From a virus, in IMG/VR virus record IMGVR_UViG_3300045131_002907, positions 1-64,000 of that record: a DNA stretch of 64,000 nucleotides; one strand, 5' to 3'. Below the pieces are notes generated by a model. The model was given only the letters and a program-made list of their open reading frames with translations, was not told where the DNA came from and did not search any database. Position numbers and translations under genes: made by a program. The stretch's first letter is position 1, and each line of letters opens with the position of its first letter. Shown in pieces: positions 1 through 63,305 of this stretch.

Positions 1-1883
1 GCCAACCCAGTGGTTCAAGCCAACCCAGTGGTTCAAGCCAACCCAGTGGTTCAAGCCAACCCAGTGGTTCAAGCCAACCCAGTGGTTCAAGCCAACCCAG
101 TGGTTCAAGCCAACCCAGTGGTTCAAGTCAACCCAGTGGTTCAAGCCAACCCAGTGGTTCAAGTCAACCCAGTGGTTCAAGTCAACCCAGTGGTTCAAGT
201 AACCCCAGTAAGCCCAGTGGTTCAAGCCAACCCAGTGGTTCAAGCCAACCCAGTGGTTCAAGCCAACCCAGTGGTTCAAGTAACCCCAGTAAGCCCAGTG
301 GTTCAAGCCAACCCAGTGGTTCAAGTAACCCCAGTAAGCCCAGTGGTTCAAGCCAACCCAGTGGTTCAAGTCAACCCAGTGGTTCAAGTAACCCCAGTAA
401 GCCCAGTGGTTCAAGCAACCCCAGTAAGCCCAGTGGTTCAAGTAACCCCAGTAAGCCCAGTGGTTCAAGTAACCCCAGTAAGCCCAGTGGTTCAAGTAAC
501 CCCAGTAAGCCCAGTGGTTCAAGTAACCCCAGTAAGCCCAGTGGTTCAAGTAACCCCAGTGGTTCAAGCCAACCCAGTGGTTCAAGTAACCCCAGTAAGC
601 CCAGTGGTTCAAGTGGCTCAAGCGATCCATACAGCAATCCGTATAGTCAGCCGTGTGAATGTATTTGTGAACCCATGAAGGAAATTGTGCTGAGTGAGTT
701 CAAGTTTAACTGCGATACCATGGAGTGGGAGCTAGAAAGCAGCACTGTGTTAGCTGGACCGTTTCAAGATGTTCCAGATGGGTGGTATCCGGGAGGCCTG
801 CTTCATGTGTTGAATAAGTTTACATTTACGAGCACTGATACTCGTATTAGATGTGTTGGCAAATGCGTCACTTGTTATCATTTTGGAGGGGAGGGGATAC
901 ATGTTAATAACGTCACCATAGAACCCACAGCCCCGCCTGACGACCCCTGCAAGTTCGTATATGTCAAATCAGTCATAGTGGACCCCTGCACACAATTTGA
1001 TTGCGTGGCGTTAGCCATGCGTGAGGTCGACCCTGCACAGGGAGAACCGCCAAACCCAAATACCAATCCACCTCCGGGGTGGGACCCAGTTAGAAGTGGT
1101 TGTTGTGAGAGTGGCCCCAGTGGCTCCAGTAATCCAAGTCATCCCAGTAATCCAAGCCATCCCAGTGGCTCCAGTAATCCAAGTCATCCCAGTAATCCAA
1201 GCCATCCCAGCGGCTCTAGTAACCCAAGTCATCCCAGTAACCCAAGTCATCCCAGTAACCCAAGTCATCCCAGTAACCCAAGTCATCCCAGTAACCCAAG
1301 TCATCCCAGTAACCCAAGTCATCCCAGTAACCCAAGCAGTGGTTCCAGTGGTTCCAGTGGTTCCAGTGGCTCCAGTGGCTCCAGTGGCTCCAGTGGTTCC
1401 AGTGGTTCCAGTGGCTCCAGTGGCTCCAGTGGCTCCAGTGGCTCCAGTGGCTCCAGTGGTTCCAGTGGTTCCAGTGGTTCCAGTGGTTCCAGCACCCCAT
1501 ATGAAGAATGTGGGTGTGACGTGTGGACCGATCAGTTTGTTGACTTCCACTTCGTCATCACAGATATCCCCGTGATAGAGAGTTGCTCCCTCAACCTGCG
1601 GCTCATCCAGTCAACTGACCCCAGACGATATATCCTTACCACGGGATCATTTGATAGAACATGTGAAGGTCTGGAAGGTGGTGGAACAGTCAATAACGCC
1701 AGCTTGACGTTTGATGACACCAATGATTGCATTGCCACCCTGACCACCATTATCAGAGGGAAGTCGACTACGTGGGGCCTCAAGCGAGACAGCACGGATT
1801 GTGCGTCATTCTACACTACTACCCCCGGATCGGGGTTGCCTGGAAACCCCCTACTGGGTACATCAGTTACCCAACTGCATTAA
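1..1883 (+). CDS. Ser/Gly/Pro/Gln-repeat surface fibre protein, 5' partial
   Basis: The first full codon is at base 3, and the frame is open without a stop to 1883, so 627 residues are visible and the start lies outside the window. The order is a long SGSSQP / SGSSNPSKP repeat block (to about base 630), a cysteine-bearing unique domain, an SNPSHPS block (about 1117-1338), an SGS block (to about 1490), and a cysteine-bearing C-terminal domain. An ATG at 675 is internal and should not be taken as the start. Such repeats are flexible linkers in extracellular or fibre proteins. With collagen-like fibres downstream, a virion fibre or appendage is the likely role. No catalytic motif is seen. Confidence 0.8.
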
Positions 1884-1905
1884 TCTTAGCCAACTGGATG
1901 GGATC

Positions 1906-4900
1906 ATGCCTCTACCCCTAGCAAATAATGCGCTGACGAAATTGATCTCCGTGCTCGACACAGGTGACACCATTGTGCATCTCGGTGACACCACGAAGTT
2001 CCCGGCGCAAGGCGCCGTGGTCATCGCGACGGCGATTCCTGGGGTAGTAGAGATTGCGCGATACAGCTCTAAAACAGATCACACTCTCCTGCTATCTGCG
2101 CGTGGTATCATGGGAACCACAGCAGCCCTTCACCCCGTGGGGGCATACTGCGGTCTCAGCATCTTGGCGGAACACTTCATTGAACTCCAAGTCGGTGAGG
2201 GGGACGAGATCGAGCGTATCCTGATGGGGAATACACTGGGTCCCCAAGACGTCGGGAAGACCTGGTTCGATACCTACTTCAACGAGTTCTTTGAATGGAC
2301 GGGGTCTGAGTGGATGGTTCCACTGCTTGATCGAGTCTCGGGTACTGGGGTTGCTGTTCAGGAGTTCATCGGGGGTGTCACTGAGATCCTGGCAAGCGCG
2401 GACTACAATGGTGGTGACCGCTGGATCAACACGGATACAGGTGAACTCCTGCGTTGCGTGGTATCCCCGCGCACACGAACACTTGCAGACTGGATTCCGA
2501 TTTCAGGAGCCACGGGATCTCAGGGGCCAACCGGTGAACCTGGACCACGTGGAATCCAGGGTGTCGCCCCTGCCAGCGGGATCCAGGGTCCGCAGGGCCC
2601 CGTTGGACCACGTGGGGTCCGTGGTGCCCAGGGTGCCGATGGCATCCCAGGTGTCACGGGTCCACAGGGAATTACTGGCCCCATCGGACCCATGGGACCA
2701 CGGGGAGCCGAGGGTGCACGTGGACCCACTGGCTCCACGAGTACGACACCGGGTCTGCAGGGCATCCCTGGGATAAGTGGTCACACGGGTCCACAGGGCA
2801 CACAAGGCCCCGCGGGTCCCCGAGGTGGTACCACGGCGAGTGCGACATCAGTTGATGGTCCCCGTGCGAATTACGACTCCCAGCCCGTAGGATTCATGTG
2901 GTGGGATATCGCGCTGGATCAGGTCTGGTTCCGGTCAGCTGCAACGCTCAGCTACGAAGGCAAGATTAACGCGAACTTACATAGACAGAACACAGTAGCC
3001 GTGCTCCCCAGTGGTGGTGTTCTCTTCGCAGGAACAAGTACATTTACCGAACCCACATGCGTGACGTGGATAGAGGTTAAGGCGATATCCGCGAATGGTG
3101 ACCACGTCCTTGGTTTGAAGACCAATGGTACCGTGCTTGCCGTTGGCGGTAACTATTATGGTGAGCTCAATGTCGCCGGGTGGTCGGAGGTCATTGCAGT
3201 TTCAGCTTCGTACAACTTATCTGTTGGACTCCGCGCCGACGGCACACTGGTGAGCGCCGGGGATACCTCTCAAGGGCGGCGTGGTCTAAATGGGTGGTTG
3301 TTGGTCAACCAGGTCGCCGCTGGAAACCAGAGCACAGTTGGTATCAAAGATGATGGCACCGTGGCCACCAAGGGGCGCAACGTCAATGGTCAGCTGAACA
3401 CCACGGGGTGGTCAAATATCTCTCAACTCGCCTGCGGTTACGAGTTCACGGTTGGGCTTCACCCCGACGGCACCGCCATTGGTACAGGATACAATGTCAA
3501 CGGTGAATACAATGTTTCGACATGGGAAACCCTTACCCAGATCGCGTGTGGGTACAACCACACGCTGGGGCTCAAGGTAGATCAAACCGTGGTTGCCACG
3601 GGGTTAAATACATCTGGGCAGTGTGATGTCTCATCATGGCTAGGTGTCACCAAAGTTCGTGGTGGTGGTGCACACTCACTGGGGCTCCTCACCGGCGGCA
3701 CAGTGGTTGGTGCCGGCAGTAACGCCAATAACCAGATCGCGGTCTCGGGGTGGAATGGGATCGTGGACATCGCATGCGGGGAGCTCCACAGCCTTGGGGT
3801 TCACACCGATGGTACAGTGGTGGCCACTGGAGACGACACCTACGGGCAGTCCTCGGTAACAGGGTGGTCTGGGATCTCACAGTTCCATGTCGCCTGCGGG
3901 TACGACAACGTCATCGCCACAGATGATTTAGGAAAGTATCACACCTTAGGGGACAACACCTACGGCCAGCTCACAGCGGTGCCAACCTGGGGGCCTGGGG
4001 TGTGGCCAATCGCAAGTGGAACCGGTCACGTCGTCGGAATCATAGCAGGAAGCGCCGTCGCGGCGGGGCTTAATGATTACGGACAATGTAATGTGTCAGG
4101 CTGGTCAAATGTCCAAAAGGTGTACTGCTGCAACTTGTCTACTATCGCCATCTACGGCGCATATGGAGAGGTTGTCGCCGTTGGAAACAATGACTACGGA
4201 CAACTCAACTTATACGATGAATGGTATGGGTACCAGTACCCGTGGATGAACATTGCAGCCATCGCGATGGGGCCCTCCCACACCCTGGCGCTTGATAGCT
4301 ACGGTGGCGTTCGTGGGGTTGGTGACAACTGGGTAGGGCAGCTCAGCTTCAGTTGGTATTATGGTTACATAGCAGTCGCAGCTGGTAGCGGGTTCTCGTT
4401 GGCGCTGGATTCATCCGGGTACGTCAGTTATGCAGGAGACACGTGGTCACCTGTCTATTATACGGTTTCCACGTGGTCAGGAATAATTGCGATCGCAGCT
4501 GGTTATTGGTTCGCTGCTGGGCTTCATGCCGATGGCACTGTATCCGTTTCAGCTACAGACCCCGCAGACCCCCTGTACGCGGCAACTGCATGGACAGGCA
4601 TTGTCGAGATCTACGCGGGCCCCAACCATCTCGTCGGACGACGTGCAGATGGCTCCGTGGTCGGTGTGCTGGGCAACTCTTACTCCGCCGACATCGGGCT
4701 TGGGAAGTTCCTACCCTGGTCCAATGTGGTCTCCGTGGCCTGTGGGCGCAATCACTCCGTGGGGCTCCATGCCGATGGTACCGTGATCGCAACGGGGCAA
4801 AACACAGATGGTCAGATTAATGTGTCGACATGGACTGGGATCATCGCAGTGGTCTGTGGACCCACGCATACCATAGGGTTGAAGCCAGATGGCACCGTCG

Positions 4901-6237
4901 TGGCCACTGGTAACAACGCAGATGGTCAAGTCTCAATTTTCCCGTTCTCGGGGATCACTAAGGTGCGGGCGAAGCAAACCTGTGTTGTCGCTCTGAAGTC
5001 CAATGGAACCCTACTGGCTACAGCGGGGTCTGACCAAAGTTACTATCAGCCAGGTGGAATGCTTGATCTCGGATCCTTTGTAGACGTCGTAGATTTTGAT
5101 CTCGCAGATCACCACTTGGTTGCCGTGTTCTCAGATGGTACTGCGAGATCTACTGGGCTATCCAACCCATACGGGGAGATGAACGTCTCGACCTGGGATA
5201 ACCTCGCCTCTGTAAAGTGTGGCAGATACTGCACAGTTGGTTTGAAGCGGGATGGTACCGTTGTCGCAGTAGGTGACAATAGTCGTGGTATGCTCAATGT
5301 CTCGGGCTGGAATGGGATCGTCGCGATTTCAGTGGGGTACTACGAAGTCATCGGATTAAAGTCAGACGGCACCCTCGTAGGCACCTTTGGAGGTTACTCA
5401 TCCTACTACGGTGAACTCGAGTTTAATGCTGGGTGGCACAACCTGATTGATATCGATGGGGGTTATCAATTCACTGCTGTGCTCCGCGCCGATGGGGTTG
5501 TCTTAGCCAAGGGTAACAACGACGTCGGACAATGTAACGTGGGGGCCTGGGCAGGGGTAACCCAGATTGCATGTGGTGAACAGGTCACACTGGGGAGACT
5601 GTCCACTGGAGCCGCAGTGGCCACTGGGCTTAATACCTCGGGGCAGTGCAATGTCAGCGGGTGGACAAATATCGCTCAGGTAGCCAGTGGGGCCAGTTTC
5701 TCCGTGGGTCGCAAGGCAGATGGCACCGCAGTTGGTGTGGGATCTAACGCCAACGGACAAATCAATGTGGGCTCATGGACCACCCTGATATCAATTGCTG
5801 CAGGTTACGGGGGTTCATTCACAGTGGGTCTCAAGGCAGACAATACTTGCGTGGCCACTGGATTGAACTCATCTGGTCAATGCAATGTCGGGGCCTGGAC
5901 TGGTATCATTGCGGTCGCCGCGGGGTATCAGCATTCCGTGGGGCTGAAAGCAGATGGCACCGTTGTCGCCACGGGGTCCAATGCCCAGGGTCAATGTAAT
6001 GTTGGGGCCTGGACAGGTATCGTTGAAGTCACCTGCAACAGAGTTGCAACATTCGGTCGCAAAGCAGATGGATCCCTGGTATCCACTGGAGCCTCCATTG
6101 CAGCACTTGCTCCGGCTGCAAAACTAGCAGTCGGCAACGATCACTACCTATGTTTGAAAGCGGATAACACTGCACGTGGCACAGGAGGTAACTCGAAATG
6201 GGAATCCACGCTGGTCGAATGGGATCTCATCACATGA
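1906..6237 (+). CDS. Collagen-like and RCC1-repeat fibre protein
   Basis: This is a 1443-residue protein. I chose the ATG at 1906 (MPLPLANN) over an upstream in-frame ATG at 1801, because its N-terminus aligns with that of the fibre gene at 7306 (MALPIQNN). Residues 1 to about 200 form the head domain shared with that gene. About 205-305 is Gly-X-Y collagen-like. From about 355 to the end there are roughly twenty 50-residue RCC1-type repeats, with recurring GLKADGTVVATG, GQCNVSGW and ACG elements, expected to form beta-propellers. The head domain probably attaches to the virion and the propellers probably bind the host surface. That role is inferred. Confidence 0.85.
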   Translation: MPLPLANNALTKLISVLDTGDTIVHLGDTTKFPAQGAVVIATAIPGVVEIARYSSKTDHTLLLSARGIMGTTAALHPVGAYCGLSILAEHFIELQVGEGDEIERILMGNTLGPQDVGKTWFDTYFNEFFEWTGSEWMVPLLDRVSGTGVAVQEFIGGVTEILASADYNGGDRWINTDTGELLRCVVSPRTRTLADWIPISGATGSQGPTGEPGPRGIQGVAPASGIQGPQGPVGPRGVRGAQGADGIPGVTGPQGITGPIGPMGPRGAEGARGPTGSTSTTPGLQGIPGISGHTGPQGTQGPAGPRGGTTASATSVDGPRANYDSQPVGFMWWDIALDQVWFRSAATLSYEGKINANLHRQNTVAVLPSGGVLFAGTSTFTEPTCVTWIEVKAISANGDHVLGLKTNGTVLAVGGNYYGELNVAGWSEVIAVSASYNLSVGLRADGTLVSAGDTSQGRRGLNGWLLVNQVAAGNQSTVGIKDDGTVATKGRNVNGQLNTTGWSNISQLACGYEFTVGLHPDGTAIGTGYNVNGEYNVSTWETLTQIACGYNHTLGLKVDQTVVATGLNTSGQCDVSSWLGVTKVRGGGAHSLGLLTGGTVVGAGSNANNQIAVSGWNGIVDIACGELHSLGVHTDGTVVATGDDTYGQSSVTGWSGISQFHVACGYDNVIATDDLGKYHTLGDNTYGQLTAVPTWGPGVWPIASGTGHVVGIIAGSAVAAGLNDYGQCNVSGWSNVQKVYCCNLSTIAIYGAYGEVVAVGNNDYGQLNLYDEWYGYQYPWMNIAAIAMGPSHTLALDSYGGVRGVGDNWVGQLSFSWYYGYIAVAAGSGFSLALDSSGYVSYAGDTWSPVYYTVSTWSGIIAIAAGYWFAAGLHADGTVSVSATDPADPLYAATAWTGIVEIYAGPNHLVGRRADGSVVGVLGNSYSADIGLGKFLPWSNVVSVACGRNHSVGLHADGTVIATGQNTDGQINVSTWTGIIAVVCGPTHTIGLKPDGTVVATGNNADGQVSIFPFSGITKVRAKQTCVVALKSNGTLLATAGSDQSYYQPGGMLDLGSFVDVVDFDLADHHLVAVFSDGTARSTGLSNPYGEMNVSTWDNLASVKCGRYCTVGLKRDGTVVAVGDNSRGMLNVSGWNGIVAISVGYYEVIGLKSDGTLVGTFGGYSSYYGELEFNAGWHNLIDIDGGYQFTAVLRADGVVLAKGNNDVGQCNVGAWAGVTQIACGEQVTLGRLSTGAAVATGLNTSGQCNVSGWTNIAQVASGASFSVGRKADGTAVGVGSNANGQINVGSWTTLISIAAGYGGSFTVGLKADNTCVATGLNSSGQCNVGAWTGIIAVAAGYQHSVGLKADGTVVATGSNAQGQCNVGAWTGIVEVTCNRVATFGRKADGSLVSTGASIAALAPAAKLAVGNDHYLCLKADNTARGTGGNSKWESTLVEWDLIT

Positions 6238-57303: not shown

Positions 57304-57575
57304 GTCCCTTTCATCGCAACAGCACCAAGGTCCTGGTCGGGGTTGAGCCCGATGGCACCCGGGTGTACCGTCACAACAACAAGATCACTCGGGTCACCCC
57401 GGATACACGTCAGTACCCCGATGTTGGATTCTACCCACCCGGGGGTCGCGCGGCACTCTATCGGGGTCGCCAGGATCCCCGGGATACCGTTGAGTTCGCC
57501 GAGGGCGTCCGGGAACTCCGGAGTCGCGGGAAACCCGCGGGGGTCCGCCCGGGGCCACAGTCATTAACTCTCTAA
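57300..57575 (+). CDS. Small basic protein
   Basis: This 91-residue protein is basic, Arg/Gly/Pro-rich (YPPGGRAALYRGRQDPRD), and starts in an ATGA overlap. No family is recognised. It could bind nucleic acid. Confidence 0.5.
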   Translation: MSPFHRNSTKVLVGVEPDGTRVYRHNNKITRVTPDTRQYPDVGFYPPGGRAALYRGRQDPRDTVEFAEGVRELRSRGKPAGVRPGPQSLTL

Positions 57576-57591
57576 CTTAGAAAGGCACACC

Positions 57592-58029
57592 ATGCCAGGT
57601 TACACCGCAACTTTTACAGATCGTGTAAAGCGGACATATGTAATTTACGCACCCACCCTCGCCGAAGCCAAATCGAAAATCAAAACGCTTATCAGCGATG
57701 GTGCGAAGCCAGATCATGAACAAAAATATCTTTGCAAGAGGCCAGAAATCAAACTGTCGAAGTCAGTCGAAATCTCTTCAGAGAAAAAGGATATCATTCG
57801 TCAATACCCTTTCCCACAGCTCTCCTATATTGTGAAAACGCATCTTGGGGTCAAACATCCCCCAGGGATCTTCCAGGAAGATCTTGCCCTGATGCTCATC
57901 ACTGCGATGGAACAGGGTGAAATCGATGCGGATGGTATCGACGAGGCCGTCATTGCTTTCGGGAGGTGCCACCGGGCTGTACTCAACAAGATGTCACCGG
58001 AGGATCGCGCAATTCTAGGTTTCGACTAA
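57592..58029 (+). CDS. Protein of unknown function
   Basis: This 145-residue protein starts after AAAGGCACACC. It begins with a strand-rich segment (YTATFTDRVKRTYVIYAPTL), followed by a helix-rich part with a PGIFQEDLALMLITAMEQGE stretch. Its DNA is lower in GC than its neighbours. No family recognised. Confidence 0.5.
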   Translation: MPGYTATFTDRVKRTYVIYAPTLAEAKSKIKTLISDGAKPDHEQKYLCKRPEIKLSKSVEISSEKKDIIRQYPFPQLSYIVKTHLGVKHPPGIFQEDLALMLITAMEQGEIDADGIDEAVIAFGRCHRAVLNKMSPEDRAILGFD

Positions 58030-58065
58030 GCATTCCAACCAATGCCCTTCGTTAAAGGAGGTTCC

Positions 58066-58407: not shown

Positions 58408-58706
58408 GAGTGCCACTTTGCTACGCCGAGGCCCTGAAGCACTCGCGTACAGGGAAGCCGTCTTCTGCGGTTCTCAAGAAGCTACGCGCCGCTGCTCTCG
58501 CCGAGTTCTTTGTCTTCGACCCCATCAAGTGGGTCTACCAGCTTCGCCCCGGGGTGAAGCCCAAGGAGGCCCTCAAACGTGTCAGTGATCACGGGGTCTG
58601 CCCGCACTGCCATCTCCGCTCACTCACCACGGGGTGTTGCCTGCAATGCGGGAAACGCCCCGATGAAGTCAAGAAGCCCTACAGTGGGCCCCAGGAGATC
58701 CCATGA
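58404..58706 (+). CDS. Zinc-motif tandem paralogue 2
   Basis: This 100-residue protein starts at ATG 58404 in an ATGA overlap. Aligned to paralogue 1, it keeps the GKPSS helix start, EFF, REALKRVSDHGVCP-type segment and the two CxxC pairs (CPHCHLRSLTTGCCLQCG). Differences are spread throughout, so the duplication is old. It overlaps the next gene by 4 bp. Confidence 0.6.
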   Translation: MRVPLCYAEALKHSRTGKPSSAVLKKLRAAALAEFFVFDPIKWVYQLRPGVKPKEALKRVSDHGVCPHCHLRSLTTGCCLQCGKRPDEVKKPYSGPQEIP

Positions 58707-59173
58707 AACACTGTACACCGGCGCCATCGTTTTGCTGTGTTATCACCGAGGGTCAGCGGATTCTTCGCATGAGACCCCCGCGGCGCTCGCTCCCCAAAGC
58801 CCAGATGGATGTCGCCCTCTGGAAGAAAGCCCACCCCGATTATGTCGAACGCCGAGATGGCAGCCTACCCCGTGTTGTCGCCACGCTCACGGGGTTTATC
58901 TGGGATGTCGAGGTCCCAGACCGATTCAAGTGGACCCGCTTCGTGAAACCAACGCCAGCGGTGGTCGCCCGATATCTCTCGACATATACTCAGACCCCAC
59001 AGGCGGGTCCGTTTGGGCGTTCCCAGTACCGTCTCAAGTTGAAGCGAGTTGACTGGAGGGGTTACCTGACATGTAACAACTGGCTCATCAAGGCCTGGGT
59101 GGAGTGGCCCCTGGCAGTCGATGTCAATCTGGTGACCCCGCGAGAAATCGAGTTCATCTGTCCCGTTCTCTAA
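58703..59173 (+). CDS. Protein of unknown function beside the tnpB gene
   Basis: This 156-residue protein starts in an ATGA overlap. It has a basic start (RMRPPRRSLPKAQMDVALWK), a strand-rich middle (WDVEVPDRFKWTRFVKPTP) and ends by overlapping the convergent tnpB gene by 4 bp. The reading frame looks whole, so the transposon-type gene did not break it. No family is recognised. Confidence 0.5.
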   Translation: MKHCTPAPSFCCVITEGQRILRMRPPRRSLPKAQMDVALWKKAHPDYVERRDGSLPRVVATLTGFIWDVEVPDRFKWTRFVKPTPAVVARYLSTYTQTPQAGPFGRSQYRLKLKRVDWRGYLTCNNWLIKAWVEWPLAVDVNLVTPREIEFICPVL

Positions 59174-60405
59174 TTAGTTACCAGAATCTCACAATTCTGG
59201 GATTTCATTAGTTCCTGGTTCATCGACGGCAGTTTCGTATTTGTCCTGCGACGAATACCAGAGCTCCCAGTCTCCCCAGGCGTTGATTCCCGCACACGTG
59301 CGGTATTGAATAGATTTAAGCCCTGAGAACGAATGTTCTCAGCGGCGTTTTCATCCCTGTCATGGACTCTTCCACAATGTGGGCAAGCCCACTCGCGAAC
59401 TGACAGTGGTAGAGATTCCATTAGAAATCCACAACCACTGCAGGTCTTGGATGATGGAAAGAACCTATCGACTTCTTGGATGGCATCTGCCTTGTACCCA
59501 AGTTGTCTCACGATCTCACCCCAGCCGACATCGCTGATGGCCCTGGCGAGACAGTGGTTCTTCATCATCCCACTGACATTTAAGTCTTCAACACAGATCA
59601 CACTGAACCGTTTGGTTATCGCGGTTGTGATTTCGTGCTGCCAGCCCTTTCGGGTCTGGGCTACTTTCCAATGCAGCCTCGATAACTTATTGGCTGCTTT
59701 CTTACGGTTCTGAGAGCCCTTGACCTTCCGGGATAAACGACGACCCAGACGTTTAAGCCTGGTGATCGCTGATCTCAGTGGTCTAGGGGCCTCGAACTTC
59801 TCTCCAGTAGACAGTGTAATCGCTGAAGTTAATCCAAGATCGATACCAACACAGGATTCCGGGTTGGGGGTCTTTTCGATATCAGGGAGTTCGACCTGAA
59901 CGGAGATCCACCATCTCTGACCCTGGAAGGAGAGGCGTGTCGAGATTGGTCTGCCCTCGAACCTGAGTTCTTCCCGCATCTTGATCCAACCTATTTTTGG
60001 GAGCTTTATTTTATTACCATCAAAACTGAACTTATCGGGGCCATCTTCCAGCCGAGCAGACGCCTTGGAACGATGCCTGGACTTAAAGTCAGGCATTGAC
60101 ATCTTGGGGCCCTTACGTTTACCTTTAATGGAATCGAAGAAATTTTGATAGGCAATTCCAAGATTCTTAATGGCTTGCTGGACCACTGACTTCGGGACCG
60201 CATACATCCATGGAAACTCTACATCCTTAATGGAGTTTAATTCCTTTCGGAGTTCAGCTTCATTGGGCTTCTCCCCTGTATCGAAGCGTTCGCGCCATCT
60301 ATTCAGGGCCCAATTGTAGGCAAACCGAGCAGTGCCCACGCAACGCCGGAAGAACTCTTCCTGGGCATCCGTTGGGTCTAGCTGGATGACGTGGGATCGA
60401 ATCAC
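59170..60405 (-). CDS. tnpB: TnpB RNA-guided nuclease (IS200/IS605 family OrfB)
   Basis: This is a 411-residue protein from GTG 60405. The RuvC residues are all there: D189 in GIDLG, E273 in VEDLN, D351 in DRDENAA. C322/C325 and C341/C344 form the zinc finger typical of TnpB. An N-terminal helical region and Arg/Lys-rich segment (RLGRRLSRKVKGSQNRKK, region 216-237) also fit. TnpB cuts DNA guided by an omega RNA taken from the element's 3' end. No TnpA transposase is nearby, so this is probably a domesticated or lone copy. It is coupled to the RHH gene upstream by GTGA. Confidence 0.85.
   Translation of the reverse strand: MIRSHVIQLDPTDAQEEFFRRCVGTARFAYNWALNRWRERFDTGEKPNEAELRKELNSIKDVEFPWMYAVPKSVVQQAIKNLGIAYQNFFDSIKGKRKGPKMSMPDFKSRHRSKASARLEDGPDKFSFDGNKIKLPKIGWIKMREELRFEGRPISTRLSFQGQRWWISVQVELPDIEKTPNPESCVGIDLGLTSAITLSTGEKFEAPRPLRSAITRLKRLGRRLSRKVKGSQNRKKAANKLSRLHWKVAQTRKGWQHEITTAITKRFSVICVEDLNVSGMMKNHCLARAISDVGWGEIVRQLGYKADAIQEVDRFFPSSKTCSGCGFLMESLPLSVREWACPHCGRVHDRDENAAENIRSQGLNLFNTARVRESTPGETGSSGIRRRTNTKLPSMNQELMKSQNCEILVTN
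59181..59200 (-). other. Hairpin at the 3' end of tnpB, possible omega RNA part
   Basis: CCAGAAT (59181-59187) pairs with ATTCTGG (59194-59200) around CTCACA, in the last codons of tnpB. Omega RNA scaffolds and IS200/605 right-end hairpins lie here. The boundary and guide cannot be set from this window alone. Confidence 0.35.
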
Positions 60406-60530
60406 TTCTTATCCATCTCACGCTGAATGAACGTACGTATGACTTCGGAGACCGAGACGCCCCTACGGGTAGCCTCGGCGCGGAGCCACTCCAGCATAGC
60501 TGGTGGGAAAAATATCTGTGATCGTATCAT
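60402..60530 (-). CDS. Ribbon-helix-helix protein coupled to tnpB
   Basis: This is a 42-residue frame on the minus strand from ATG at 60530, ending in TGA at 60402-60404 that overlaps the GTG of tnpB. The sequence RSQIFFPPAMLEWLRAEATR followed by RGVSVSEVIRTFIQRE has the strand-helix-turn-helix form of Arc/CopG/MetJ repressors: a short beta strand, then helices with the GVSVSE turn. It is expected to bind DNA as a dimer. The tight coupling suggests that it controls its own and tnpB expression. It has a promoter directly in front of it. Confidence 0.7.
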   Translation of the reverse strand: MIRSQIFFPPAMLEWLRAEATRRGVSVSEVIRTFIQREMDKK

Positions 60531-60534
60531 GTGT

Positions 60535-60564
60535 AGTATCCTACCCCTGTACGGTGTATGTCAA
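60535..60564 (-). promoter_or_regulatory. Sigma-70-type promoter for RHH-tnpB
   Basis: On the minus strand, TTGACA (60559-60564) is a perfect -35 box. GATACT (60535-60540) is a -10-like box, with an 18-base spacer. Transcription would start near 60528-60529, at the ATG of the RHH gene, so the mRNA may be leaderless. An AGGA at the -10 may be an alternative ribosome site if transcription starts further upstream. Confidence 0.55.
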
Positions 60565-60656
60565 CCCACCACGATGACAGGAAACCGGGTGGTGGTGAAT
60601 GGCGTGATCTGGTAGTAAACCCAACACCGTTACTCTACCTTCTAAAGGACCCAATC

Positions 60657-61025
60657 ATGGAAGTCTCAGCTCCCGTTGTTGCAGTTGTATCCGGGAAGCC
60701 CAATAGGGTTCCCCTCCCCATACGCCCCACGATTTGGGGTCTGGTCCGCGCAGGTGTCGACTTTGATCATAGTGGACCTGATATCGCCGAACTATTCAAG
60801 AGGGGGTTCACTGAAGACGACCTCATTGAATCCGGGATCTGGCAGCGTGCCAGCAGGGGGCGTCTGGTCCGCACTTTCGGTGGGTTCGTGCAGCAGTGCT
60901 ATGAGCGCTGTGATTCCAATAGCACCGCGGTCCTCGAACTCGCCTCGTTGAACTGGAACCATGGAAACCGAACAATCAACACAGTTAGGAAAGAGCATGG
61001 CGTCCATCAAAATCGAAGAAACTAG
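60657..61025 (+). CDS. Protein of unknown function
   Basis: This 122-residue protein starts at ATG 60657 after AAAGGACCCAATC. It has a beta-rich start and a helical middle (IAELFKRGFTEDDLIESGIW). Its last codons overlap the next gene out of frame. CCACCAC / GTGGTGG (60566-60595) is a hairpin in its leader region. No family is recognised. Confidence 0.5.
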   Translation: MEVSAPVVAVVSGKPNRVPLPIRPTIWGLVRAGVDFDHSGPDIAELFKRGFTEDDLIESGIWQRASRGRLVRTFGGFVQQCYERCDSNSTAVLELASLNWNHGNRTINTVRKEHGVHQNRRN

Positions 61026-61902
61026 CATCAAGCTGAGCGCGAGTTTCGCGCTCGGTGCAGCACCACTGTCCTATGACCAAGACGATGGCTTTGCCAAATC
61101 GTCTACCAGGGTTCATTACGATGTCGGCCGCCAACCCCGCCGGATCGATTTCGATGTCGCCTCTGATCTCCTCTCCGAGATGTTGCTTGGTGTCGCCGGC
61201 AAGTCTCTCCCCGCGGACCTCATGCTCAGGGGGGTCGATGAAGTCTATATCAACCCCACGTCTAACTGGAGGGATGATGTACTCGTGAGCATTCAGGCAT
61301 CAGTGGGAGACGCCGGAGAAATCTACGGCCCCTGTTGGAAATCATTGATCGCGGAGAAGATGAAGGGGGTCATCACGCGATTCATCGCGATGACGCAGAC
61401 CCCAGGAGCCCTGAAGTGGTGGGAACGCCGTACAGAACTCGAGCGCCGGCTGAAGGCACATGACAATGCCCACCGGGGGTACATGGCCAGTGATGAGTTC
61501 TACAAGCAGCAAGCCGAGATCAGAGAACACCCCGATTTCGACAACACTGAACCCCCTGACTTCATCGGAGATGTTCTCTTGGCCACCAAGTTCGCCGAGC
61601 TCGATATCGCGATTACGGGGAAACAGGTCCAGGGTTGGAAAGAGTACCCGCTTCGGTTCGAGGACATCGTGGGATCCCAGGATCTCATCTACCTCAACGA
61701 TGGGGGCTACTCCCGCATGGGGCTCTTCATCAACACCGATGATACCATACGGATTGTCATCTGCATGAATGAGAAGTCAGACCACCATGGTCGCCAGCAC
61801 GACGACGACGTCACCGCGAAGATGCGGGAGATCCAGGAAGCCGCGACGACGTGGTACCGTGCTGCCCTCAAGGAAGCCGGAGTGGATGCGTCATGCCGCT
61901 GA
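60997..61902 (+). CDS. Protein of unknown function
   Basis: This is a 301-residue protein from ATG 60997, with AGGAAAG just before it; an in-frame ATG at 60961 has a weaker ribosome site. It shows mixed alpha/beta structure with an acidic C-terminal end (SDHHGRQHDDDVTAKMREIQ). No family is recognised. The start overlaps the previous gene by 29 bp and the end overlaps the next by 10 bp. Confidence 0.5.
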   Translation: MASIKIEETSIKLSASFALGAAPLSYDQDDGFAKSSTRVHYDVGRQPRRIDFDVASDLLSEMLLGVAGKSLPADLMLRGVDEVYINPTSNWRDDVLVSIQASVGDAGEIYGPCWKSLIAEKMKGVITRFIAMTQTPGALKWWERRTELERRLKAHDNAHRGYMASDEFYKQQAEIREHPDFDNTEPPDFIGDVLLATKFAELDIAITGKQVQGWKEYPLRFEDIVGSQDLIYLNDGGYSRMGLFINTDDTIRIVICMNEKSDHHGRQHDDDVTAKMREIQEAATTWYRAALKEAGVDASCR

Positions 61903-62177
61903 CCTGGGTAGACAATACCAGAGTGGTCAATCAGGCACGTGAGGTTCGAGAGCGCCGTGCCCCAGGGTACCACTCGCACTCCAAGATCCTGCATGGGTAC
62001 ACGAACCCCCGGAGCTTCATGGCCCTCAGCCATGGGGTTTTCGTTGAAGCCGTCGCCGCAGGCAAAGATGGCTTCAGTGCTGTCCAGGATTTCCTGGATG
62101 GCACTGAACTCAAACATGGGCACCCGATAAGAAACCTCATTCTCGCGCGAATCGCGAAGGAGCACCCCAGTGGCTAA
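61893..62177 (+). CDS. Small protein of unknown function
   Basis: This is a 94-residue protein from ATG 61893 (MPLTWVDNTRVVNQAREV), overlapping its upstream neighbour by 10 bp. It contains a basic centre and a helical C-terminus. It overlaps the next gene by 8 bp. No family recognised. Confidence 0.5.
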   Translation: MPLTWVDNTRVVNQAREVRERRAPGYHSHSKILHGYTNPRSFMALSHGVFVEAVAAGKDGFSAVQDFLDGTELKHGHPIRNLILARIAKEHPSG

Positions 62178-62436
62178 GAAAGCGAAGAAGACCAAGAAGA
62201 AGAAGTCCAACATTGCGACGTTACGAGAGACCTTGTTGGTCCTCGAGGATGACGCCGCATTCTCGGGTACCGAGGGGTTCATCCGGCAGTGGAAGGATGT
62301 CTCGGATTCCGATTTTGATCTCCTGGAGAATGGGCATCTCCCCGATGCCTCTCCTGATGTCGAGATCAGCATTATGACCTTGCTTAATGAAGCCAAGGCA
62401 GCCGGTCTCCCCTGTGTTAAAAACCTGGTTTATTGA
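62170..62436 (+). CDS. Small Lys-rich start protein
   Basis: This 88-residue protein starts at GTG 62170 after AAGGAG. The first 12 residues are AKKAKKTKKKKS, which would contact nucleic acid or be an unstructured tail. The rest is acidic and helical (FIRQWKDVSDSDFDLLENGH). No family recognised. Confidence 0.5.
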   Translation: MAKKAKKTKKKKSNIATLRETLLVLEDDAAFSGTEGFIRQWKDVSDSDFDLLENGHLPDASPDVEISIMTLLNEAKAAGLPCVKNLVY

Positions 62437-62448
62437 GGAGGGATTACA

Positions 62449-62949
62449 ATGTTCGATGCCACTACATTAGCCAAAATTTGTTACTACGCCCAACAACATG
62501 TCAGTGATCCTCAGGCCTGGGATCACTCAAAAGAACACCTGGATCACATCTTTCAATGCACATCTTTTACCATTGCTTGCTTCCTTGCAAACAATACTGT
62601 AGAGGGAGGTGGCGGTGTCGATTGGGACATTGTTCAAGAAGAGCTTTGTCAAATGCCCGCAAAGTCTCTCAAGCAGTGGGAGAGAATCATTAAAAAGAAG
62701 ATTAAGGTTTTCGGAGGCTTAACGAAAAAGGCACCAACCGCAGCCCTACGTGACTCCATGATTAACATGGTGAACGAGTTGTTAGCCAATGACACCGGTG
62801 TTCGTGAGTCCACGTATAACGAACTCATCCATCTCGTCAGTCTGATCTTGACAGTTGATGAGGTCGGTTTGCTCAAGAAGCATGTGGAAGCCACCGATGG
62901 ACAATTCTACTTACCGGAGGGCACCTACTTTGATCCACCTAAGGCATAG
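62449..62949 (+). CDS. Protein of unknown function
   Basis: This 166-residue protein starts at ATG 62449 after GAGGAGGG, a very strong ribosome site. It is helical, with a CTSFTIACFLANNTVEGGGG segment (CFLANN), and ends with a strand-rich part. Its GC content is lower than its neighbours. No family recognised. Confidence 0.5.
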   Translation: MFDATTLAKICYYAQQHVSDPQAWDHSKEHLDHIFQCTSFTIACFLANNTVEGGGGVDWDIVQEELCQMPAKSLKQWERIIKKKIKVFGGLTKKAPTAALRDSMINMVNELLANDTGVRESTYNELIHLVSLILTVDEVGLLKKHVEATDGQFYLPEGTYFDPPKA

Positions 62950-62963
62950 ACCAGGAGGTACCA

Positions 62964-63305
62964 ATGCCACGTAAACCCAACTCTGAATCGCTAGAGCGTC
63001 TTGGCTGTCATCACTATAAATCGATTTCTGTTCCTGTGATGGCAAAGATAGTTTCTGACTGTGTGGGCTGGTATTCCCACCAGTTGTGTGGGGATAGTTT
63101 TCAGCGCGCCGCGGCGCAAGCCCAGGTGCGCCTGACATCGCAACTCATCGCAGCCTGGGTAGCCCAGCGTTGCCACACCGGGGTTAATCCAGATGACGTC
63201 AATCAGGTCTTGGTGCTGGATCAGCAATACCCCCAGCGCAGTTTTGCCCAATGGGAGTCAAACCTCCGTTTCCTCATCAGCAAATACAAGAGGAGTCCCA
63301 AATGA
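62964..63305 (+). CDS. Protein of unknown function
   Basis: This 113-residue protein starts at ATG 62964 after AGGAGGT. It is basic and helical (AQVRLTSQLIAAWVAQRCH). It overlaps the next gene by ATGA. No family recognised. Confidence 0.5.
   Translation: MPRKPNSESLERLGCHHYKSISVPVMAKIVSDCVGWYSHQLCGDSFQRAAAQAQVRLTSQLIAAWVAQRCHTGVNPDDVNQVLVLDQQYPQRSFAQWESNLRFLISKYKRSPK

Follow-up and report, generated by a model that had tools for sequence, protein, structure and literature searches.

A ribbon-helix-helix gene overlapping tnpB

The DNA analysed here (the window) is 64 kb of the 75,424-bp IMG/VR virus record IMGVR_UViG_3300045131_002907. It carries a gene for TnpB, the ancestor of Cas12, whose start codon is overlapped by a short gene for a protein of the ribbon-helix-helix (RHH) type. 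The two genes are on the minus strand, and the phage genes on either side of them run on the plus strand. The record has tail-fibre genes, and none of the INPHARED phages is close to it at the DNA level. The features at the core of the locus are as follows.

60535..60564, minus strand: predicted promoter, TTGACA (60564-60559), 18 bp, GATACT (60540-60535), its end 4 nt ahead of the RHH ATG
60402-60530, minus strand: RHH partner gene, 42 aa, its TGA stop sharing GTGA with the tnpB GTG start (four-base overlap)
59170-60405, minus strand: tnpB, 411 aa, GTG start, RuvC residues D189/E273/D351, zinc cysteines C322, C325, C341 and C344

An earlier note on this stretch had described a TnpB that keeps its RuvC triad and zinc finger, a 42-residue RHH gene overlapping the tnpB GTG start with a TTGACA promoter in front, and the lack of a TnpA; each of these points was borne out. 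TnpB scored 97.8 bits with OrfB_IS605, 64.4 with Cas12f1-like_TNB and 51.4 with HTH_OrfB in Pfam, and 288 bits with the NCBIfam model guided_TnpB NF040570 (cut-off 100). It aligned over 360 residues with ISDra2 TnpB (PDB 8bf8, E = 2.4e-67), with the catalytic residues and the four cysteines in correspondence, and the triad and cysteines were invariant across a 10-member TnpB alignment. The nuclease is apparently intact, and RNA-guided cutting by it is likely. Neither the full 75-kb record nor the further RHH-TnpB phage records searched gave a Resolvase domain (PF00239), the mark of a TnpA serine recombinase. The NCBIfam models IS200_TnpB (316.7) and IS607_TnpB (277) both scored below their cut-offs. 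The tree neighbours of the window TnpB carry IS607 TnpA; because TnpA is absent and the curated models do not decide, the IS607 family label was not assigned to the cassette.

The RHH protein on its own fell under the Pfam cut-offs (RHH_5, 19.6 bits, E = 8e-4). As it is too short for them, it was checked by a leave-one-out profile, a profile search of the PDB and an AlphaFold model. The profile of five other TnpB-linked RHHs recovered the window protein at E = 1e-16, and a profile of all six matched VapB26 (E = 8e-4) and also CdbA among PDB sequences. The AlphaFold model (pLDDT 91.5) had CdbA, CopG, ParG, Arc and VapB as its best PDB matches (TM 0.7-0.87; 0.8-0.87 for CopG and Arc), with Foldseek E-values of 0.06-0.2, which are weak, as expected at 42 residues. 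By sequence and predicted fold, the 42-aa protein is of the RHH (MetJ/Arc/CopG) DNA-binding type.

RHH-tnpB modules in other viruses

A search of relatives for the same pair, a check named in the earlier note, showed that the RHH frame is kept: nine distinct RHH-TnpB modules were obtained (window, L003, L029, L060, L100, L107, L198, L200 and, at its second TnpB, L024). Those of L003, L029, L060, L100 and L107 came from the genes upstream of TnpB loci fetched by similarity, and their RHHs share WL(R/Q)xEA...S...(V/I)(I/V/L)R with that of the window. When the RHH profile was run over 803 kb of DNA (133 loci), it gave seven matches, six of them at a tnpB start, more than chance would produce. The seventh was L024, a 72-kb virus contig on which the RHH gene (209-358) overlaps the start of a second, divergent TnpB-like open reading frame (ORF, 349-1047); the contig also bears an IS607-type TnpA-TnpB about 1-2 kb from this pair.

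When 2.9 million viral contigs were scanned with only the RHH as query, 11 loci were obtained, and TnpB lay directly downstream in nine of them, L198 and L200 being the new additions. The other two were L204, probably not an RHH, and L203 (2501-2811), where an RHH gene is followed by a small unclassified ORF that it overlaps by ATGA. The L203 ORF (62 aa) has repeated TMA(T/D)P-F(K/R) segments and no Pfam match, and might be the tail of a homing endonuclease. At BLAST sensitivity, RHH queries found no RHH-TnpB pair and one RHH-GIY-YIG pair among INPHARED phages and PLSDB plasmids (L100 and L003 against both; window, L203 and L205, the locus of the GIY-YIG pair, against INPHARED only). No RHH precedes the TnpB of LR745208.1, which at 40% is the closest from a database phage. 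In 875 cellular genomes, drawn from the phyla to which a cyanobacterial, an actinomycetotal and a parcubacterial genome belong, the RHHs found were all unlinked to TnpB, for example beside a peptidase or a PIN toxin.

A tree of 133 TnpBs has one half with every IS607-type TnpA neighbour (19) and one half with the Y1 TnpAs; of the eight RHH rows, the first half holds seven and the second holds one, L200. The RHH label requires seven changes on this tree and has therefore been repeatedly gained or lost. We regard the RHH-TnpB module and its recurrence as very well supported.

L038, of the IS605 branch, has an Arc-like RHH 12 nt upstream and was not counted as the same module. At L025:354-554, a 66-aa MerR-type DNA-binding ORF overlaps the tnpB start by 4 nt and is apparently an IS607 TnpA internally deleted to its head and tail, which fits a selected regulator slot ahead of tnpB. 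At L007:420-1410, an IS607 element has ten tRNA genes within 1 kb beside it; the contig (8.5 kb) is binned as Thorarchaeota and could be a virus or plasmid fragment.

Promoter sequences ahead of the RHH genes

The score of the window promoter was matched by 0.1% of mononucleotide shuffles, yet chance alone would give one such box in 1.8 kb. All 7 of the modules first examined (window, L003, L029, L060, L100, L107 and L030) have a TTGAC[AG] box no more than 60 bp from the RHH start, compared with 7/98 TnpB-only loci; L030 carries a different, 63-aa RHH and, though in this count, was not counted as the same module. L200 also has the box. In the window, L029, L060, L100 and L107, the distance from TTGACR to the start codon measures 34-36 nt; that in L200 is much the same. 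With a spacer of 17-18 bp, the expected transcript start thus falls at the start codon, and the RHH-tnpB message is probably leaderless.

Palindromes were found in the promoter spacers of L003 (TGACAGTC-6-GACTGTCA, p = 0.002) and L200 (GCATATC-5-GATATGC, p = 0.008). The seven promoters combined gave p = 9e-4; outside L003 and L200 the signal is weak and single tests are mostly non-significant. The palindromes resemble operators, and we consider autorepression by the RHH fairly likely.

Predicted guide RNA at the 3' end of tnpB

The earlier note had placed a guide RNA at the 3' end of tnpB, and the features predicted there agree with it.

59163..59310, minus strand: predicted omegaRNA scaffold over the tnpB 3' end, ending ...GAGAACGG, with a covariance-model match at 59307-59211
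59212..59280, minus strand: weak full-length match to RAGATH-18 (RF03064), 24.7 bits, under the gathering score of 44.9

Over its final ~140 bp, tnpB can be aligned at the RNA level with the tnpB ends of relatives. A consensus and covariance model built from 25 relatives, with the window excluded, has 15 pairs, with compensatory changes in 12. Cells of the consensus were paired in 91% of cases, versus 65% after shuffling and 24-44% with slid partners. The model detected the window at 57.6 bits (E = 5e-13); it also matches many other TnpB ends. The tnpB stop lies inside the RNA in L151, L152 and L042, and RNA-like conservation persists beyond it, so protein coding cannot account for this conservation. 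A single-sequence fold of the window RNA yielded the same stems (z = -2.5).

RAGATH-18 is the guide RNA of IS607 TnpBs (PMC11061315). The Rfam match by itself was rejected as proof of the predicted RNA, its score being below the cut-off; the purpose-built model provided the support instead.

Two side observations concern the RNA. On the plus strand, the 3' hairpin of the predicted guide RNA (59181-59200) reads as a terminator-like stem-loop located where the left phage gene ends, at chance level in shuffles. In L061, the model has a second match (4642-4731), stronger than the first and some 1 kb further downstream; it may represent a second element or a guide RNA that has become detached.

Insertion site, empty allele and predicted target

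The cassette is the lowest-GC stretch of the window (GC 0.500, versus 0.571 ± 0.030 over 251 windows), and comparison with a relative, L013 (216 kb), gave its limits.

59165..60655, minus strand: inserted cassette of ~1,491 bp, in place of which L013 has 17 bp (TACTATTGAGGAGATCA)
58703..59173, plus strand: left flanking phage gene, in which the end of the insert takes the place of the last two codons and the stop
60657..61025, plus strand: phage gene that flanks the insert immediately on the right, with a ribosome-binding site (AAAGGA) now within inserted DNA
59143..59162, minus strand: predicted guide, GACAGATGAACTCGATTTCT, phage DNA just outside the insert, identical in the L013 empty site

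L013 has 87% identity to the window in the right-hand gene and ~94% in the leftward DNA, lacks window positions 59165-60655, and no TnpB was found on its contig. There the left gene has its own stop and the right gene its own ribosome-binding site. Because both of these are replaced by insert sequence in the window, the empty allele is most simply read as the ancestral form.

Further differences from L013 lie nearby: an indel at 57567-58044, with an ORF (57592-58029) absent from L013, and a region right of the cassette (61893-62964) that is shorter there. The phage region around the cassette is a mosaic, as judged from this comparison. Elsewhere in the window (1801-6237), a large tail-fibre-like protein has, at residues ~955-1050, further matches to PHROG families that bear the name regulator of chromosome condensation (RCC1-like).

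GGG stands at both insert edges (ATTGGG and AACGGG on the minus strand), but 17 bp of the empty site are replaced. IS607-type recombination takes place at GG and would give such edges, which is one point for reading the cassette as a non-autonomous insertion sequence (IS1341-like) that TnpA mobilises in trans, with the RHH as a passenger or non-regulatory accessory and TnpB ensuring only retention after transposition. TnpBs without TnpA are moreover the commonest class (~100/131 rows), and the branch around the window has IS607-type TnpA in 19 members and no Y1 TnpA. We nevertheless consider this explanation unlikely: no serine recombinase was found in the record or in the other RHH-TnpB phages searched, the flank from ATG to GGG is not the same as in L013, and the RHH is a conserved, homologous, start-overlapping partner across scattered TnpB lineages, no random passenger.

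The extent of the guide was deduced from the motif that ends the scaffold, together with the 20-nt guide in PMC11061315. The end motif at the insert edge (GAGAACGG) recurs in several relatives (GAACGG). Among the 2.9 million viral contigs, a 21-mer covering the guide was present in one contig only, that of L013, directly beside ...AATAGTAGG. From this we infer that the adjacent motif of the window TnpB is GG-ending (...AGTAGG); published adjacent motifs of RAGATH-18-type TnpBs are AGGAG or GAGGG (PMC11061315). Both alleles of the target site are thus known, occupied in the window and empty in L013, and the empty one bears a perfect guide match. Of the two roles offered in the earlier note, homing is favoured by that match, whereas general competition between phages is not supported, the guide being restricted to one close relative; any exclusion would therefore act on sibling phages without the cassette.

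The guide also bears on whether the phage has domesticated TnpB as an RNA-guided regulator or defence gene, either TldR-like or guided to host or rival DNA. The transposase is gone, and transcription factors derived from phage TnpB homologues are described in PMC13418256. Here the guide is the insertion's own flank, without another viral match, and the catalytic triad and zinc site are intact; we consider domestication very improbable. Identity with TldR, a nuclease-dead TnpB regulator, was ruled out by the intact RuvC triad.

An RHH gene beside a GIY-YIG nuclease

The one pair from the database phages is in LR745208.1, a 485-kb phage (268500-271500; L205), where an RHH gene lies just before a GIY-YIG/NUMOD3 gene (minus strand 1024-1962) and overlaps it by ATGA. 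The nuclease domains scored 29.0 bits (GIY-YIG, cut-off 22.6) and 45.8 bits (NUMOD3, cut-off 20.4), and by these matches the gene is a homing endonuclease; the RHH has 48% identity to that of L003 over 33 residues. It is mainly because of this pair, a single case, that the homing reading and a regulatory role of the RHH are preferred. Phage homing endonuclease genes (GIY-YIG, HNH) resemble the cassette as free-standing nucleases at an intergenic site with an empty allele in a relative, in LR745208.1 also with an RHH of the same type; they pick the target by protein, whereas the window TnpB would do so by RNA.

The pair also has a bearing on a possible addiction-like module, in which the RHH would be a labile antidote, TnpB a harmful nuclease, and loss of the cassette would be punished, as in type II toxin-antitoxin loci (VapB, CopG-type, BrnA). 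Those loci likewise have a short RHH first, an overlapping partner and their own promoter. Antidote-first order with overlapping genes is typical of them, the solved or curated proteins most closely related to the window RHH include RHH antitoxins, and cutting of an emptied site by TnpB would itself penalise loss. The 42-aa RHH, however, lacks the extra C-terminal tail that binds and neutralises a toxin, and its partner is TnpB, with no known toxin family matched in Pfam or NCBIfam searches. Because the occupied site is without the adjacent motif, TnpB has no obvious toxicity towards the genome that encodes it, and the GIY-YIG pairing is better explained by regulation than by protein neutralisation. 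We think such a module improbable, if less so than domestication.

Model of cassette function

Our best reading, held with moderate confidence, is a transposase-less, RNA-guided TnpB homing cassette with its own RHH repressor. Transcription would begin at the RHH ATG or within a few bases of it, giving a leaderless message. Translation would start with the RHH, and ribosomes re-initiating at the GTGA overlap would then translate tnpB. An RHH dimer would bind its own promoter and keep the levels of nuclease and guide RNA low. When a cassette-free relative enters the same cell, TnpB with its flank-derived guide would cut the empty allele by the GG-ending motif ...AGTAGG; either recombination with the occupied genome would then place a copy of the cassette at the cut, or the genome that was cut would be lost. 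The occupied allele would be spared because, as we propose, the insert parts the guide match from the adjacent motif. The cassette would thus be comparable in its behaviour to a homing endonuclease gene, and its regulator would occupy the position that TnpA has in IS607-like elements. Homing in mixed infection is plausible.

Several observations weigh against this reading. The guide of any TnpB element matches its empty site, and the match alone is no proof of homing. L013 is the sole empty-site relative known, a search with the left flanking gene having returned the same contig only, and 17 bp of the empty site are replaced, unlike a clean insertion, which leaves the exact insertion event uncertain. 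The self-control suggested in the earlier note stays plausible; palindromes are significant in L003 and L200, and none is individually significant in the window, where GTAG-GATA-CTAC gave p = 0.49. There is no TTGAC[AG] box in L198 or L024. The L060 tnpB is frameshifted near its start, with the RHH overlap nonetheless retained. Finally, the RHH is missing from the locus of the closest TnpB (L019, 59%) and from L022 and L040, inside the L029 group, and is therefore dispensable in some lineages. In L022 and L040, tnpB is open from a GTG that closely follows a promoter-like box, which would fit a deletion of the RHH gene.

Relation to known systems

The window TnpB shares its fold, catalytic residues, 3'-end guide RNA and flank-derived guide with TnpBs of IS607 and IS200/IS605 elements (ISDra2, ISFba1; PMC8612924, PMC11061315). 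Unlike these elements, the cassette has no TnpA and an RHH gene in that slot. Its RNA resembles RAGATH-18 over the full length, but the IS607 RAGATH-18 reRNA is independent of coding sequence (PMC11061315), whereas the window RNA lies over the coding end of tnpB and scores below the Rfam cut-off. A TnpB gene drive has been demonstrated in plasmids (PMC11870625), and the outcome proposed here is similar, in that element-free copies would be cut and element-bearing copies favoured in inheritance; that drive is an IS200/605 element with plasmid targets, while the window holds a phage cassette with an RHH and without transposase.

The RHH/Arc and MerR regulators of CAST V-K (type V-K CRISPR-associated transposons) are, beside the plasmid gene drive, the nearest precedents. 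Among them CvkR represses, and leaderless expression is supported for both CvkR and cas12k (PMC9938897). CvkR and Arc_1/Arc_2, of which Arc_2 is of the RHH_5 type, are likewise small DNA-binding proteins tied to a TnpB-derived protein, Cas12k (PMC9938897). Their gene is divergent from cas12k (PMC9938897), whereas the window RHH is on the same strand, in one operon, and overlaps the start of tnpB; and the partner in the window is, by its residues, a catalytically intact TnpB instead of Cas12k. We found no description of RHH-TnpB (or CopG-TnpB) operons in the open-access papers searched, most subscription journals being outside that coverage.

More tentatively, this small RHH family may be a general partner of phage homing nucleases, both RNA-guided (TnpB) and protein-guided (GIY-YIG), usually leaderless and translationally coupled, that restrains the nuclease and makes a transposase-less TnpB a stand-alone RNA-guided homing element. 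The cassette bears on how transposase-less TnpBs persist and how their cutting is restrained. With a dedicated repressor gene in the transposase slot, recurring in distant phage TnpB lineages, it would be a compact natural system combining regulation, guide-RNA making and homing. The parallel with the RHH/Arc regulators of Cas12k transposons hints that nuclease-linked repressors have been recruited more than once.
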